Assembly: GCF_040183065.1 (NCBI RefSeq)
Contig: NC_091131.1
Span: 8,380,001-8,444,000 of the forward strand
Length of the DNA stretch: 64,000 nt
Direction of reading: 5' to 3'
Source of the DNA: Periplaneta americana
Lineage: Eukaryota > Arthropoda > Insecta > Blattodea > Blattidae
Shown here: piece after piece, positions 19,724 to 59,265 of the stretch
How the letters are laid out: the number at the start of each line of letters is the position of its first letter
Numbering within the stretch: the stretch's first letter is position 1
The notes under the pieces: generated by a model
The model's database searches: none
What the model was told of the DNA's origin: nothing
What the model saw: only the letters and a program-made list of their open reading frames with translations
Translations under genes and position numbers: made by a program

Positions 19724-19986
19724 TATTTTGTGACGTGCTGGCGAGTCTGAGACGCCCAATTGCAATCTCCGCTGACTATGGGATAGTCCAAGCGCTCAAT
19801 TAATTCTCAGCCGGTGGTAAAGACGAATTTCTTTGAAGATTTAGGACAATTTGGTACTGATAGGCTTTCTCAGATGCCAATCAATCTCCAATCAAAAGAA
19901 AAGCGAGCGGCATAGGCGGAGTTATGGAGGGGTAAGGGGGAGGAGCACTGCCCCCCCCAAACTTGTCTGAACTCTTTTTATTTTAT

Positions 19987-20374
19987 ATATATATATATAT
20001 ATATAATTATAATGTACCGAAGTACATATGATATTTCCATGCAGATATTCTGCATTATCATACGATGAAAGAGTAATGGAACGGAGAAAAATTCTCTCCG
20101 GCGCAGGGATCCCGACCAACTAGTCACTCATTACGAGTGCACCTCAGCACATATGTGGACTTCGGTCCTAGGTTCATAGATATCTATGACGTAGTGCAGA
20201 GGGCGGCCACTAGAGGGAACCCAAGAGTTGGAACTTAAAATTGAGACGATTCTTCCGACTCCGGGGTGGAATCCGGTGTGGCTTAGTGGATAAAGCGTCA
20301 GCACGTAGAGCTGAAAACCCGGGTTCAAATCCCGGCGCCGGAGAGAATTTTTCTCCGTTCCATTACTCATTCAT
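19987..20374 (-). mobile_element. tRNA-bearing inverted-repeat retroposon, partial copy
   Basis: Same family as 58753-59251, in reverse orientation. An (AT)n tail at 19987 leads to GTACCGAAGTACATATGATA, then the arm ending in GAGTAATGGAACGGAGAAAA, the central module and a tRNA-like module at 20272-20342. The left-arm tRNA copy is deleted. It is flanked by CTTTTTATTTTAT at 19974-19986 and 20375-20387. Confidence 0.75.
20272..20342 (+). tRNA. tRNA-like module (not called a functional tRNA gene)
   Basis: 71 nt folding as a full cloverleaf. The acceptor TCCGGTG/CGCCGGA has 7 pairs, the D stem GCTT/AAGC, the anticodon stem TCAGC/GCTGA with loop ACGTAGA, and the T stem CCGGG/CCCGG with loop TTCAAAT. 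A box TGGCTTAGTGG and B box GGTTCAAATCC fit the consensus exactly, and TTTTT lies at 20348-20352. The apparent anticodon GTA is preceded by C instead of the near-universal U33, and the module is repeated inside mobile elements, so it is tRNA-derived. Confidence 0.6.
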
Positions 20375-20389
20375 CTTTTTATTTTATTA

Positions 20390-27861: not shown

Positions 27862-27883
27862 AATAATTATTATATATATATTA

Positions 27884-28105
27884 TTTAATGTACCGAAGTA
27901 CATATGTTTCCATGCAGATATTCTGCGTCATCGTACGATGAAAGAGTAGTGGCTTAGTGGATAAAGCATCAGCACGTAGAGCTGAAAACCCAGGTTCAGA
28001 TCCCGGTGCCGGAGAGAATTTTTTTCCATTCCATTACTCTTTCATCGTATGACGTAGAATATCTGCATGGAAACATATGTACTTCGGTACATTAAATAAT
28101 AGCCT
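27884..28105 (+). mobile_element. deletion derivative of the tRNA-bearing element with paired arms
   Basis: Arms TGTACCGAAGTACATATG...GATGAAAGAGTA (27888-27948) and TACTCTTTCATCGTATGACG...CATATGTACTTCGGTACA (28037-28100) are inverted. They enclose one tRNA-like module lacking its first 6 nt (27949-28013), followed by seven T residues. Confidence 0.7.
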
Positions 28106-28432
28106 ATATATGATACGCGTAAATCACTTTGTAATGTAAGACGGCGCTTATTCCGTCGGATCCCGGCCAACCAGTCACTCATAATGAATGCACCTCTGCA
28201 CATGTGTGGACATTATCCTACGTTCATAGACATCTATGACTTAATGCAGAGGGGAGGCCACTAGAGGGAACCCAAGATGTGGAACTTCAACTGAGACGAT
28301 TCGATCCGACACCGGGATGGGAATCCGGTGTGGCTTAGTGGATAAAGCATCAGAACGTAGAGCTGAAAACACGGGTTCAAATCCCGGTGGCGGAGAGAAT
28401 TTTTCTCCGTTCCACTACTCTGTCATTATATT
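28106..28432 (+). mobile_element. second tRNA-bearing unit, contiguous
   Basis: The central module (GTAAATCACTTTGTAATG to GAGACGATTCGATCC) leads to a tRNA-like module at 28324-28394 and a shortened arm GAGAGAATTTTTCTCCGTTC. The acceptor and T-arm carry mismatches, so this module is more decayed than those at 20 and 59 kb. Confidence 0.7.
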
Positions 28433-36640: not shown

Positions 36641-37024
36641 AACCGAACATCTGTTGACACGGGAGACGTTCGTGATTTTCTTCGCATCCACAACCTAACT
36701 AGTTTCTTAAAATGTTTGTGCTAACTTCTGGAAATGACTTAAAGACAATGCGCAAACTCTTAAAAGGAAACCGTCCACCAGGTGCTGAAAAACAGTCCAA
36801 CACAGAAATTGACGAAACATAATTCCAGTGGGATTAAATTAACATTACACTCAGTCAGTTGTTTTTAAACAAACTAATTCTTGTAGTAAATCAATATTGT
36901 ATTAAACGAATGCCATTTCTTTTATAAAGAGGCTGCTTAGAAATAACGAGGATGCACAAAATTTAACTTCTCACTTTTGTAAACCCTGTATTTACTTGTA
37001 ATGTAAAAAGTTTTTTCTGCTTAC
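36641..37024. other. putative intron or upstream region of the LRR gene
   Basis: No coding signal. If the acceptor at 37025-37026 is used, this is the 3' part of an intron. Confidence 0.4.
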
Positions 37025-37026
37025 AG
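37010..37026 (+). promoter_or_regulatory. 3' splice acceptor before the LRR start codon
   Basis: A T/C-rich tract TTTTTTCTGCTTACAG ends two bases before the ATG at 37029, the expected form of an intron 3' end with a non-coding first exon upstream. Confidence 0.6.
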
Positions 37027-37028
37027 AC

Positions 37029-38471
37029 ATGACAGACTGGAAGTGCCTGCTACTTGTCACAATCCTTTCGACGCTTTGTGACGTAAGAGAACTGTGTCCC
37101 ACTAAATGCCGTTGCAATGGAAACAGTTGCAACTGTTCATGGGCGTCACTGGATGACATTCCTCTTGAAGACATCGATAGCAATAGCACCGAGTTTATAG
37201 CATCAAATAATCGTCTCACCGTCCTCAAGAACGGTTCCTTCACCGCCTTCCGCCTTCGTAAACTAAGAGTTATCAACTTGGATTACAATCATATTTCAGC
37301 AGTAGAGTCGGGCACTTTTGAGGGTCTTCACAGCTTGAAGATTTTGTCAGTGTCTCATAACGTGATAGAGGACCTTCATTATCATACATTCGCTCAGACG
37401 ACAAAGCTTCAAGAATTACGAATCAGTCACAATAACTTAGCGTCCCTACACCCTGACCTTCTGAGGCAAACTCACCTGTTGCAAGTTTTTGATGCTTCAA
37501 ATAACGCAATAAAAATTCTACCACCACTTTTATTCAAACACTGCACTCTCCTCAAAGAAGTGATTTTGAATAAGAACAAAATTAAGCACATCAGCAGCCA
37601 ACAGTTCCTTCACAATCCAACTATCAAAATCGTCAACTTGGGGAAGAACTTTATACAACAACTTCATCCAGAAACATTCAATTACATTAAGGATCTTTCT
37701 TATTTAAATTTAAGTGACAACAAAGTGCTTTATCTAGAAACAGACACATTTAAGAACAATTGTCATCTCATTAAAGTAGATCTGAGCAAGAACAGATTGC
37801 AAACACTCCCTGTGTGCGAGGAGAATTGTTTGGAAAACGTGATGTTGCTTGATATTTGTGACAATCCAATTGTGGAAGGCAAGAACGTTCAACGCGTGAA
37901 ACAATTGTGTGAAAGTAATAAAATGTTTTTAGTGGAACCGTGTGGTACAACATCGTCGGAACAAAGGAACAATAATAATAATATATTCGAAGGTCAGCAG
38001 ATGGCTCAAGAACGTGCGATACTCCATGGTAGGTTCAGAAGATCGTATACAACTGGGACAATTGGTGTGAAAATGCTGAACGAGAGTGACTCTACCAGTG
38101 TAATCCCCAGTTTCGAAAACAGCGGCAAAGATATCAATAGAAATAATTCTGTCATATCGGAAAATGAACCTGAGAATTTTACTCAAAGCTTTTTAAATTC
38201 TACTATAACAATCTCACTAGATGAGAGTGATCAAAATGTGACAGTTAAGTTCATAGATTATGATTCACCTCTTGTGTTGCGTGAATCAACAGTACGTGGC
38301 ATCTTTTTCATCTCCCTTGAGTGTACTTTAGCTGGTGCTGTCGTGTTGAAGAGATTACTATTTTCGAAAGAAAAGACAGAATCAAATGTTGTCGATACAA
38401 TTGAACTTTTGCCAGTATCGGAGCCAAAAACAGATGCAGAAAACAAAGCAACACAAACACACAGTGTGTGA
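37029..38471 (+). CDS. leucine-rich repeat protein, secreted or membrane-anchored
   Basis: 480 residues in one open exon, the only convincing host gene here. Residues 1-20 form a signal peptide (KCLLLVTILSTLC). A cysteine-rich LRR N-cap follows (CPTKCRCNGNSCNCSW, about 23-38). Nine to ten 24-residue LRRs run from about 55 to 285 (for example LRVINLDYNHISAVESGTF, LSYLNLSDNKVLYLETDTF). A C-cap with Cys at about 288 and 300 comes next. The region 310-420 is polar and rich in N-glycosylation sequons. A weak hydrophobic segment at 424-445 (GIFFISLECTLAGAVVLKRL) could be a membrane anchor, leaving a 35-residue tail. Extracellular LRR proteins of this build usually act in ligand binding or adhesion, but no orthologue is recognised. 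The start is supported by the upstream splice acceptor and the signal peptide. No clear AATAAA follows nearby. Confidence 0.85.
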   Translation: MTDWKCLLLVTILSTLCDVRELCPTKCRCNGNSCNCSWASLDDIPLEDIDSNSTEFIASNNRLTVLKNGSFTAFRLRKLRVINLDYNHISAVESGTFEGLHSLKILSVSHNVIEDLHYHTFAQTTKLQELRISHNNLASLHPDLLRQTHLLQVFDASNNAIKILPPLLFKHCTLLKEVILNKNKIKHISSQQFLHNPTIKIVNLGKNFIQQLHPETFNYIKDLSYLNLSDNKVLYLETDTFKNNCHLIKVDLSKNRLQTLPVCEENCLENVMLLDICDNPIVEGKNVQRVKQLCESNKMFLVEPCGTTSSEQRNNNNNIFEGQQMAQERAILHGRFRRSYTTGTIGVKMLNESDSTSVIPSFENSGKDINRNNSVISENEPENFTQSFLNSTITISLDESDQNVTVKFIDYDSPLVLRESTVRGIFFISLECTLAGAVVLKRLLFSKEKTESNVVDTIELLPVSEPKTDAENKATQTHSV

Positions 38472-41699: not shown

Positions 41700-42066
41700 A
41701 TCGAAACGTTTAGCTTTACTGTTGTCTAGGTAACAAATGGTCTGCCAGTAGTACGCCAACTATCGGAAACTATCTCACTTGTTGAGACAATGGATCCAGA
41801 CATGGCCTGCCTTAATGCATTAATTCTGTAAGTATTTACAAAGGCTTTGCTTCTATTAAATACAAGGTAATATATTTTTCTTATTGCTGAATGATGAAGT
41901 AAGATAGGCCTAGGCGTAAAAAAATAAAACTATATATATAATATATAACAAGTTATATTATACAGTGCAATAATATAATGCATTGTATAATTACATATGG
42001 AATGTTTTTAATATCTGCATATTATATACAATATGTATCGTTTTACTTCTTTGGGAGAAATATTCG
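41700..42066. other. unassigned
   Basis: No supported feature. Confidence 0.35.
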
Positions 42067-42142
42067 CTCCGGCACCGAGGATTGAACCCAGGATCTTCAA
42101 CTCTACGCACTGGATGCTCTTACCAATTCAGCTATGCCAGAG
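42067..42142 (-). tRNA. diverged tRNA-like module of the paired-tRNA family
   Basis: On the minus strand CTCTGGC/GCCGGAG form an acceptor, GGGTTCAATCC is a B-box match and TAGAGTTGAAGA follows the pattern of the 20- and 59-kb modules. The anticodon stem is decayed. GAATATTTCTCC follows as in the other copies. Confidence 0.5.
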
Positions 42143-53233: not shown

Positions 53234-55484
53234 AATAGTTCATAAGAGAAAGATTATCAGTAGCCAAGCGAGTAGAGCAACAAGTTAATATTACTAAATT
53301 CAATATTTTGAAATTAAAAGACGAGGAAGCTAAGCAAAATTATCAGGTCGAAATTTCGAATAGGTTTGCCACTTTAGAAAGTTCCGACGAAGTTGAGAAA
53401 GAATTAGATGTTAATAGCGTGTGGGAAAATATCAGAGATAGTATCAAAATTGCAGCTGAGCAGAGCATAGGTTATTATGAAACTAAGAAAAAGAAACCGT
53501 GGTTTGATGAAGATTGTTGCATGGTAGTAGAAAGAAGGAAACAGGCAAAATTGAAATTCTTACAGGATCCAGTTGAGGAGAATAGAGATAATTATTTCAA
53601 TGAAAGACGGGAAGCAAGTCGTACACTTAGGAATAAAAAGAGAGGTTACTTGAAGGAAAAACTGAATGAGGTAGAAACAAATAGTAAGAATAAAAACATT
53701 CGAGATTTATATAAGGGTATAAAGGAATTTAAGAACGGATATCAGTCAAGGGTAAACGTGATCAAGGATGAGAATGGTGACTTGCTTGCAGACTCTTCAT
53801 CAATCCTAAACAGATGGAAAAACTATTTTGCGCAACTACTAAATGTACATAGGCCAAATAGAAATGATCGGGACGATATTGAAATACAAACTGCTGAGCC
53901 ATTTATACCCGAACCCACACTTTCAGAAGTCGAAATTGCGATAGAAAATCTGAAAAAGTACAAGTCTCCAGGTATCGATCAAATTCCAGCAGAATTAATA
54001 CAAGAGGGTGGAAGTGCATTATATAGCGAAATTTATAAACTTGTACTTGCTATTTGGGAAAAGGAAATTGTACCAGAACAATGGAAGGAGTCCATAATTG
54101 TACCTATTTTTAAAAAGGGGGACAAAACCAACTGTGGTAACTTTCGAGGAATATCACTTTTGTTGACGTCGTACAAAATTTTGTCCAATATTCTTTTGAG
54201 GAGATTAACTCCGTACGTAGATGACATTATTGGGGATCATCAGTGCGGTTTTCGGCGTAATAGATCGACTATTGATCAGATTTTTTGTATTCGGCAGATA
54301 ATGGAGAAAAAATGGGAGTATAAGGGTACAGTACATCAGTTATTCATAGATTTCAAAAAGGCATATGACTCGGTTAAGAGGGAAGTATTATATGATATTC
54401 TTATTGAATTTGGTATTCCCAAGAAACTAGTTCGATTAATTAAAATGTGTCTCAGTGAAACATACAGCAGAGTCCGTATAGGTCAGTTTCTATCTGATCC
54501 TTTTCCAATTCACTGCGGGCTAAAGCAGGGAGATGCACTATCACCTTTACTTTTTAACTTCGCTTTAGAATATGCCATTAGGAAAGTTCAGGATAACAGG
54601 CAGGGTTTGGAATTGAACGGGCTACATCAGCTTCTTGTCTATGCAGATGACGTGAATATGTTAGGAGAAAATACACAAACGGTTAGGGAAAACACGGAAA
54701 TTTTACTTGAAGCAAGTAAAGCGATCGGTTTGGAAGTAAATCCCGAAAAGACAAAGTATATGATTATGTCTCGTGACGGGAATATTGTACGAAATGGAAA
54801 TATAAATATTGGAGATTTATCCTTCGAAGAGGTGGAAAAATTCAAATATCTTGGAGCAACAGTAACAAATGTAAATGACACTCGGGAGGAAATTAAACGC
54901 AGAATAAATATGGGAAATGCGTGTTATTATTCGGTTGAGAAGCTCTTGTCATCCAGTCTGCTGTCCAAAAATCTGAAAGTTAGAATTTATAAAACAGTTA
55001 TATTACCGGTTCTTCTATATGGCTGTGAAACTTGGACTCTCACTCTGAGAGAGGAACATAGGTTAAGGGTGTTTGAGAATAAGGTGCTTAGGAAAATATT
55101 TGGGGCTAAGCGGGATGAAGTTACAGGAGAATGGAGAAAGTTACACAACACAGAACTGCACGCATTGTATTCTTCACCTGACATAATTAGGAACTTGAAA
55201 TCCAGACGTTTGAGATGGGCAGGGCATGTAGCACGTATGGGCGAATCCAGAAATGCATATAGAGTGTTAGTTGGGAGACCGGAGGGAAAAAGACCTTTAG
55301 GAAGGCCGAGACGTAGATGGGAGGATAATATTAAAATGGATTTGAGGGCGGTGGGTTATGATGATAGAGACTGGCTTAATCTTGCACAGGATAGGGACCG
55401 ATGGCGGGCTTATGTGAGGGCGGCAATGAACCTTCGGGTTCCTTAAAAGCCATTTGTAAGTAAGTAAGTAAGTAAGTATTTTGT
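53234..55484 (+). mobile_element. RTE-like LINE, 5'-truncated, best copy in the window
   Basis: Truncated inside the endonuclease-RT linker and ending in a (GTAA)n tail at 55456-55479. TGTTTAATT occurs just outside both ends (53225-53233, 55485-55493), a plausible 9-bp target duplication. It lies inside a LINE 3' UTR. Confidence 0.8.
53239..55446 (+). CDS. RTE-like reverse transcriptase, 5'-truncated ORF
   Basis: The frame is open from 53239 ([16 protein letters not shown]...) to the stop at 55444-55446, about 735 codons with no internal stop. The start is lost by truncation. The first in-frame TTG at 53308 is not a believable natural start. The linker is rich in Lys/Glu. RT motifs follow: [59 protein letters not shown] (Asp 1), [16 protein letters not shown] and [13 protein letters not shown] (catalytic DD). 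The C-terminal domain carries [17 protein letters not shown] and [14 protein letters not shown], and ends NLRVP. Only the endonuclease is missing, so the source element may be recently active. Confidence 0.88.
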
Positions 55485-57334: not shown

Positions 57335-57970
57335 GGGCGCAACTATGCCATGTCCATTCTGCTACCCGATTTCTTCGGGGCGCAACTAAATGCCATGTCC
57401 ATTCTGCTACCTGATTTCTTCTGGGCGAAACTATGCCATGTCCATTCTGCTACCCGATTTCTTCGGGGCGCAACTATGCCATGTCCATTCTGCTACCTGA
57501 TTTCTTCTGGGCGCAACTATGCCATGTCCATTCTGCTACCTGATTTCTTCTGGGCGCAACTATGCCATGTCCTTTCTGCTACCTGATTTCTTCTGGGCGC
57601 AACTATTTATTTTATTTTAGTATGTTATTTTACAACGCTTTATCAACAGCTTAGGTTATTTAGCGTCTGAATGAGGTGAAGGTGATAATGCCGGTGAAAT
57701 GAGTCCGGAGTCCAGCACCGAAAGTTACCCAGCATTTGCTCATATTGGGTTGAGGGAAAACCCCGGAAAAAACCTCAACCAGGTAACTTGCCCCGACCGG
57801 GAATCGAACCCGGGCCACCTGGTTTCGCGGCCAGACGCGCTAGCCGTTACTCCACAGGTGTGTACAGGGCGCAACTATGCCATGTACATTCTGCTACCTG
57901 ATTTCTTCGGGGCGCAACTATGCCATGTCTAGGCCTTCCAATTGACCGCGGGGCGCAACTATGCCATACC
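57335..57970. repeat. minisatellite of about 43-bp units, split by a SINE
   Basis: Units GGGGCGCAACTATGCCATGT / CCATTCTGCTACCYGATTTC repeat about six times at 57335-57603 and continue at 57867-57970 after the SINE. Confidence 0.9.
57604..57866 (-). mobile_element. tRNA-derived SINE inside the minisatellite
   Basis: Same family and orientation as 6843-7108. The minus-strand head has B-box-like GGTTCGATTCC and the tail is T/A-rich at 57604. Confidence 0.87.
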
Positions 57971-58738: not shown

Positions 58739-58786
58739 ATATAAGTAATTAATGATGAAAGAGTGATGGAACGGAGAAAAATTCTC

Positions 58787-58857
58787 TCCGGCGCCGGGAT
58801 TTGAACCCGGGTTTTCAGCTCTACGTGCTGATGCTTTATCCACTAAGCCACGCCGGA
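58787..58857 (-). tRNA. tRNA-like module, left arm
   Basis: 71 nt cloverleaf with a fully paired acceptor TCCGGCG/CGCCGGA, exact A box TGGCTTAGTGG, exact B box GGTTCAAATCC and five T residues downstream on the minus strand (58777-58781). Apparently identical to the right-arm module. Confidence 0.6.
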
Positions 58858-59087
58858 TACATCAAAATATATATGATATGCGTAATAAATCACTTTGTGA
58901 TTTAAGACGGCGCCTATACCGTCGGATCCCGGCCAACCAGTCACTCATTCGAGTGCACCTCAACACATGTATGGACTTCGGTCCTGCGTTCATAGACATC
59001 TATGACGTAGTGCAGAGGGCGGCCACTAGAGGGAACCCAAGAGATGGAGCTTAATCTGAGACGATTCTAACCGGCGTCAGGGTTGTA

Positions 59088-59158
59088 TCCGGCGTGGCTT
59101 AGTGGATAAAGCATCAGCACGTAGAGCTGAAAACCCGGGTTCAAATCCCGGCGCCGGA
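59088..59158 (+). tRNA. tRNA-like module, right arm
   Basis: Mirror image of 58787-58857. Anticodon loop ACGTAGA, with C where U33 is expected. TTTTT at 59164-59168 could terminate pol III. Called tRNA-derived, not a cellular tRNA. Confidence 0.6.
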
Positions 59159-59265
59159 GAGAATTTTTCTCCGTTCCATCACTCTTTCATCATATGATGA
59201 CGCAGAATATCTGCATGGAAATATCATATGTACTTCGGTACATCAAAATATATATAAGTAATTAA

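Follow-up and report, generated by a model that had tools for sequence, protein, structure and literature searches.

A tRNA-bearing element of the American cockroach seems to follow the insertion pattern of Penelope-type retroelements

SINEs are generally held to be parasites of LINEs, and twin priming by LINE-1 shows scattered second starts together with a weak second cut motif. Work on Penelope-like elements describes another route. The Poseidon protein of Anolis cuts both target strands and extends them, with reverse transcription beginning at two neighbouring sites inside the RNA; what lies between these sites forms the genomic 'tail', and in the published assay the start sites are alike on both strands and the cut motif is ATT (PMC11167929). 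Penelope insertions contain direct pLTRs plus an inverted one and are flanked by duplications of 8-10 bp that are sometimes absent; a 31-bp tail is optional at one inverted pLTR, and pLTRs suffice for mobilisation in trans (PMC3846280). Animal retrozymes are non-coding, with head-to-tail units of a few hundred nucleotides and target duplications, and Penelope-like elements or LINEs are believed to mobilise them (PMC7229834). For nine SINE families of Blattella germanica, Sbg1-Sbg9, a start 11 nt before the A box has been reported (PMC9191728).

Here we analyse a tRNA-bearing element at positions 58753-59251 of a 64,000-nt stretch of Periplaneta americana DNA (NC_091131.1, 8,380,001 to 8,444,000; hereafter the window), together with its relatives in the genome. 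Its insertion pattern seems to be the one published for Penelope-type retroelements, and it is not a pattern expected of an ordinary tRNA-headed element.

Unit, modules and copies in the window

We searched the genome of P. americana (3.23 Gb, 91 contigs) by BLAST. The element at 58753-59251 (element A) matched at least 210 pieces, with the best 40 of 943 first-look candidates scored; a second insertion in the window (element B) matched at least 126 (best 40 of 3132 candidates scored), and module Y at least 42 (best 40 of 1061). Many tandem arrays among these matches have a period of 381 bp, the repeated unit being 381 nt, arranged head-to-tail. Numbered u1-u381 from the 5' end of the tRNA, it comprises, in order, a tRNA-Tyr-like module with A and B boxes (R, u1-72), a T5 hairpin and an AT-rich stretch with a TTCG hairpin (T, u73-164), and then modules X and Y. 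The T/X joint between laps is identical in 28 of 30 distinct contexts matching the search expression (L001-L030), a uniformity that led us to disfavour end-to-end template jumping. ARAGORN assigns the tRNA modules to tRNA-Tyr in all of 39 loci. The family is non-coding and dispersed and has target duplications, in which respects it resembles a tRNA SINE.

The features of element A and its relatives in the window are:

58739-58752, no strand: target duplication, left copy, perfect 14 bp in the sequence, ATATAAGTAATTAA
58752-58861, minus strand: tract 2 of element A, antisense from u106 back past u1 to u378, with its start near u105
58786-58857, minus strand: inverted tRNA-Tyr-like module R', A box 58840-58850, B box 58797-58807
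58858-59255, plus strand: tract 1 of element A, u152 to u168, 398 nt, slightly more than one lap
58858-58927, plus strand: end of the T module and X module
58928-59087, plus strand: Y core module
59088-59159, plus strand: tRNA-Tyr-like module R, A box 59095-59105, B box 59138-59148
59160-59251, plus strand: T module, with T5 at 59164-59168, a TTCG hairpin near its 3' end and an AT tail
59252-59265, no strand: target duplication, right copy, 14 bp in the sequence, ATATAAGTAATTAA
19995-20375, minus strand: element B, second insertion; tract 1 at 19995-20110, tract 2 at 20107-20375 (mapping)
27874-28431, minus strand: element CD; tract 1 at 27874-27947, tract 2 at 27949-28431 (mapping)
42054-42141, minus strand: distant tRNA-like relative (76% over 88 nt); a similar hairpin follows its tRNA module

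Element A holds two identical tRNA-Tyr(GTA) cloverleaves on opposite strands (ARAGORN; Rfam RF00005, 63 bits apiece), set in inverted repeat arms (58752-58861 and 59084-59193) that are 110 nt long, 100% complementary and separated by a 222-nt spacer. An initial annotation had described such identical tRNA-like modules in an inverted repeat, and this holds, the module length being 72 nt by ARAGORN and not the 71 nt given there. Its further claims of pol III boxes with a T5 tract and of a perfect 14-bp flanking duplication also agree with what we find: both modules have the A box (TRGYNNARNNG) at tRNA position 8 and the B box (RGTTCRANTCC) at position 51, and the T5 at 59164-59168 is mirrored in the opposite arm. 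The terminal 4 nt of tract 2 (TACA, 58858-58861) are common to the tract 1 side, and the final 4 nt of tract 1 (ATAT) overlap the target duplication. Plasmids, viral contigs and prokaryote contigs gave no match.

That relatives of element A occur in the window proved correct as to the family, with differences in detail. The piece placed at 19987-20374 is the insertion 19995-20375, which has its own 12-bp duplication (TTTTTATTTTAT, 19975-19986 and 20376-20387). The two pieces taken as separate relatives, 27884-28105 and 28106-28432, are parts of the single structure CD, around which no target duplication was called, and the one placed at 42067-42142 is merely a distant relative.

Tract borders, joints and target duplications

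Mapping covered 84 sequences (L001-L083 and CD, element A being L001 and element B L051), of which 10 repeat insertions were removed, leaving 74. Exactly two tracts of opposite orientation are present in 66 of the 74, in a sample that favours inverted copies, since queries A and B span the inverted joint, the best candidates alone were scored and most loci came from such queries. The two-tract design recurs in all three loci picked by the Y query, which contains no joint (L081-L083), and likewise in elements B and CD. Of the other eight insertions, seven consist of a single tract, with its end at u167-171 in six and at u108 in L039; the eighth (L005) has three blocks. Near one young insertion (L036), about 400 nt away, lies an older inverted copy of the family with 89-94% identity (L036:301-958).

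The outer ends of the tracts recur. Tract 1 ends at u161-174 in 64 of the 66 two-tract insertions, with one exception each at u123 and u183; in the copy ending at u123 (L072), an extra piece across a 250-nt gap ends at u168. Tract 2 ends at u102-114 in all 66, and in L039 the u105 start was used alone, with the duplication TTAAATAC. Read indirectly from insertion ends, these borders point to two nearby internal start sites on the RNA of the cockroach element. No mapped two-tract copy (n=66) opens with the tRNA in sense; the single tract L022 begins at u6.

The inner joints of the two tracts fall at many positions, a few of them recurrent, and are microhomologous: the overlap is 3 nt or longer in 40 of the 66, against 5.3% of random joints, with BLAST ends blurring single overlaps. 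A fixed 'B-type' inverted subfamily was considered and set aside, because the joints vary from copy to copy, even if some positions are used repeatedly. Tract length varies between 44 and 2338 nt, the longest tracts making about six laps, and 48 of the 66 two-tract insertions include a tract of more than one lap. The retroposon-like family of the initial annotation is thereby upheld in one sense and revised in another: consistent outer borders and target duplications recur among genomic copies in the BLAST survey, whereas the fixed unit with two inverted tRNA modules gives way to a variable arm joint and variable tracts, the start points alone being fixed.

Under a strict rule, target duplications were resolved in 47 of the 66 two-tract insertions, with 19 left without a call. 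Their lengths are 12 bp in 28, 13 bp in seven, 14 bp in two, 11 bp in three, 10 bp in three and 8 bp in four. A C precedes the duplication in 36 of the 47 (binomial p 9e-20 against flank composition), and a G stands 13th, counted from the start of the duplication, in 26 (p 2e-9), C and G occurring together in 19. The fuller motif is loose, with AAC in 13 of 47 and GTT in 8 of 47; the borders of element A have neither C nor G, and those of element B the G only. From this base preference, both strands appear to be cut 5' of a GTT-like motif, with the cuts staggered by 12 nt, in a roughly symmetric C-N12-G target.

Origin of the inverted layout

The inverted layout is far beyond chance and marks the insertion process, not a conserved architecture. 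On balance we lean towards a non-autonomous, tRNA-bearing retroelement whose multimeric or circular RNA of 381-nt units is primed twice, from both target strands, perhaps by a Penelope-like enzyme supplied in trans. The template RNA would be a head-to-tail multimer or a circle of the unit. The enzyme would nick both target strands with a 12-nt stagger, and reverse transcription would begin from each target 3' end at one of a pair of internal sites in the RNA, about 63 nt from each other. Joining of the resulting cDNAs would follow, their meeting point being the microhomology seen in the sequence, and the inverted repeat with its tRNA pair would be a by-product of the double priming. Less surely, the enzyme would derive from a Penelope-like element, and Pol III would start the RNA at u378, which lies 11 nt upstream of the A box. 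We infer double priming from the insertion ends; the use of two internal sites and of both target strands is what has been published for Penelope-like elements.

In EN-containing Penelope-like elements (Poseidon, rotifer Pen), too, tandem and inverted copies lie together within a target duplication, and Penelope-like elements also resemble the cockroach element in two nearby internal starts, a tail at one end, extension of both strands, AT-rich targets and microhomology joints; that their cis ends suffice for mobilisation in trans is counted here as a further likeness (PMC11167929; PMC3846280). Unlike the elements described there, the cockroach element is without an ORF and has a tRNA module with Pol III boxes, and no hammerhead was found in it; its tail is about 63 nt long, not 30-40, and its duplications are mostly 12 bp, not 8-10. 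Unlike those of Poseidon as described, its two ends always use different starts, and its motif is GTT-like, not ATT. By analogy, the element works like a Penelope-driven element, and it would belong with Penelope-like elements by likeness alone. No Penelope-like enzyme was present in the 20 of 285 flanking ORFs scanned, a 78-aa N-terminal Poseidon peptide used as query gave weak matches at chance level, and RNA similarity to PAc Poseidon was also at chance level (best E 0.29). Rfam searches of the window at the gathering threshold and of L023:850-3000 at E 5 found neither a hammerhead ribozyme nor any other ribozyme.

The nearest non-coding analogue is the animal retrozyme, which likewise consists of short non-coding units, arranged head-to-tail, with target duplications (PMC7229834). 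Unlike retrozymes, the cockroach element has a tRNA module where no type I hammerhead was found, and an inverted arm is present in most of its mapped copies; the sections of PMC7229834 used here make no mention of such an arm. The Sbg SINEs are similar in having a tRNA-like head, which includes A and B boxes, a tail that is a short tandem repeat or AT-rich, and duplications of 10-15 bp, but are presented as head-body-tail units (one of them dimeric), and the sections of PMC9191728 used here do not describe 381-nt multimers or inverted second tracts.

LINE-driven integration was the first proposal for element A; two starts, priming on both strands, the tandem plus inverted layout and the tail at one end fit Penelope-like elements better. 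The form of it that deserves most weight, though we consider it unlikely, is LINE-driven twin priming of a tRNA SINE transcribed as tandem multimers, in which the second start is a preferred annealing site. Both starts do precede an identical 7-mer in the sequence, ATATGAT. LINE-1 twin priming likewise produces two cDNAs on both target strands, joined at microhomology, with one part inverted; it yields a 5' inversion inside one duplication, as seen here, LINE reverse transcriptase fragments are common around the loci, and AT tails are usual among retroposons. Unlike the scattered second start of LINE-1, however, the one seen here is fixed in 66 of 66 insertions and the tracts are multimeric; related cut preferences occur at both borders in a 12-bp register, and in L039 the second site served by itself. 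Snap-back self-priming of the first cDNA, our initial model for element A, would place the inverted arm at just such a microhomology as TGTA/TACA (58858-58861 and 59084-59087), where snap-back would prime, but it was dropped once the second border proved fixed: it leaves the u102-114 border unexplained, and in L046 and L054 the subfamily of tract 2 differs from that of tract 1. We now regard it as very improbable. A foldback or MITE-like DNA transposon, slightly less probable again, would account for inverted ends and a fairly constant duplication length; against it, the ends differ by about 63 nt, inner joints and lap number vary, and single-tract copies exist. Least probable of all is a chance pair of ordinary SINEs in opposite orientation. 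SINEs make up 3.47% of the P. americana genome (PMC12774602), yet in 47 of the 66 two-tract insertions both arms lie within a single pair of duplications, which refutes chance pairing for those resolved copies, and both outer borders recur. The two modules are thus not independent SINE insertions, the outcome that the initial annotation had named as fatal to its reading.

The form of the template bears on both the favoured double priming and the LINE alternative, as in each the templates could be linear, transcribed by Pol III from tandem arrays that have been homogenised, and circular RNA would play no part. We give this option a little under an even chance. At 26 subfamily-diagnostic sites, CpG sites kept in, laps within one tract agree in 1303 of 1337 comparisons (L044, with 398, and L050, with 265, supplying about half of them), laps in separate tracts of one insertion in 1304 of 1389, and laps between insertions in 143709 of 234694. 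Each insertion therefore mostly repeats one monomer sequence, which would fit a circular RNA as well as transcripts of a homogenised array; for the linear option, agreement this strong requires the array to be homogenised. Variants confined to some of the laps in L039, L044, L045, L049 and L050 favour the linear option and tell against a simple circular monomer; they could, however, stem from exchange that followed insertion. Tract ends speak for it as well. At least one of them falls at u371-u10, an interval chosen post hoc, in 10 of 24 hand-picked insertions, where about 2.6 would be expected if uniform; the 24 were intended to be free of query-spanned joints, yet contain element A and L045, whose first match, L009, covered query positions 3-499. 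Exactly u378, with the Blattella-like spacing of 11 nt before the A box, is the end in six of 66 (L001, L003, L007, L008, L012, L035), several of which have the joint of element A and were favoured by query A. Against linear transcripts, T5 is intact in 182 of 195 laps, so that Pol III would need to read through every time. Subfamilies are mixed between or within tracts in L046 and L054, which indicates that more than one RNA may take part or that conversion has occurred. The circular fold of the unit RNA has a z of about -6, with covariation beyond single copies at only one pair (u338-349), and we rest no argument on it. Tiling both tracts by hand on one linear RNA left broad gaps, and we claim no pattern from it.

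A tRNA element with a Penelope insertion signature would widen the rule that SINEs parasitise LINEs. Its many natural insertions would allow start sites, cut stagger and target preference to be read. The family also shows that what looks like an inverted-repeat element with a pair of tRNAs can arise through the way copies are inserted.

Related families and neighbouring features

A second tRNA-Tyr-like family lies in the flank of L002 (L002:2158-3353), in tandem and inverted copies with a unit of about 337 nt and the parts in the same order. It has GGCGCCGGAG.GA.TTTTTCTCC and ATCCCGGCCAAC.AGTCACTCA in common with the 381-nt element; the two families share the sequence that follows the tRNA and the first part of Y, the remainder being much diverged. 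The distant relative at 42054-42141 probably belongs to yet another family, a third one. We tentatively raise the possibility, which we rate below even, of a superfamily of tRNA-promoted retrozyme analogues, to which at least two families, alike in the order of their parts, would belong. In these the tRNA would replace the ribozyme and drive, perhaps also process, the RNA; the template would be circular or multimeric, and a Penelope-like enzyme would insert it by priming at two internal sites, from each of the target strands. Such elements would form a SINE-like class driven by a Penelope element.

The RefSeq annotation of P. americana lists 4,974 tRNAs (PMC12774602), and our guess is that tRNA-Tyr-like modules of these elements may inflate such gene counts. 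Elsewhere in the window, a 735-codon ORF at 53239-55446 encodes a LINE-type reverse transcriptase domain (RVT_1, E 9.9e-39) and lacks the tail of the 381-nt family. A 489-codon ORF with leucine-rich repeats at 37002-38471, whose nearest other protein is 39% identical, is a possible host gene, and a tandem repeat of 43 bp at 57335-57606 runs for 6.3 copies with 94% matches.
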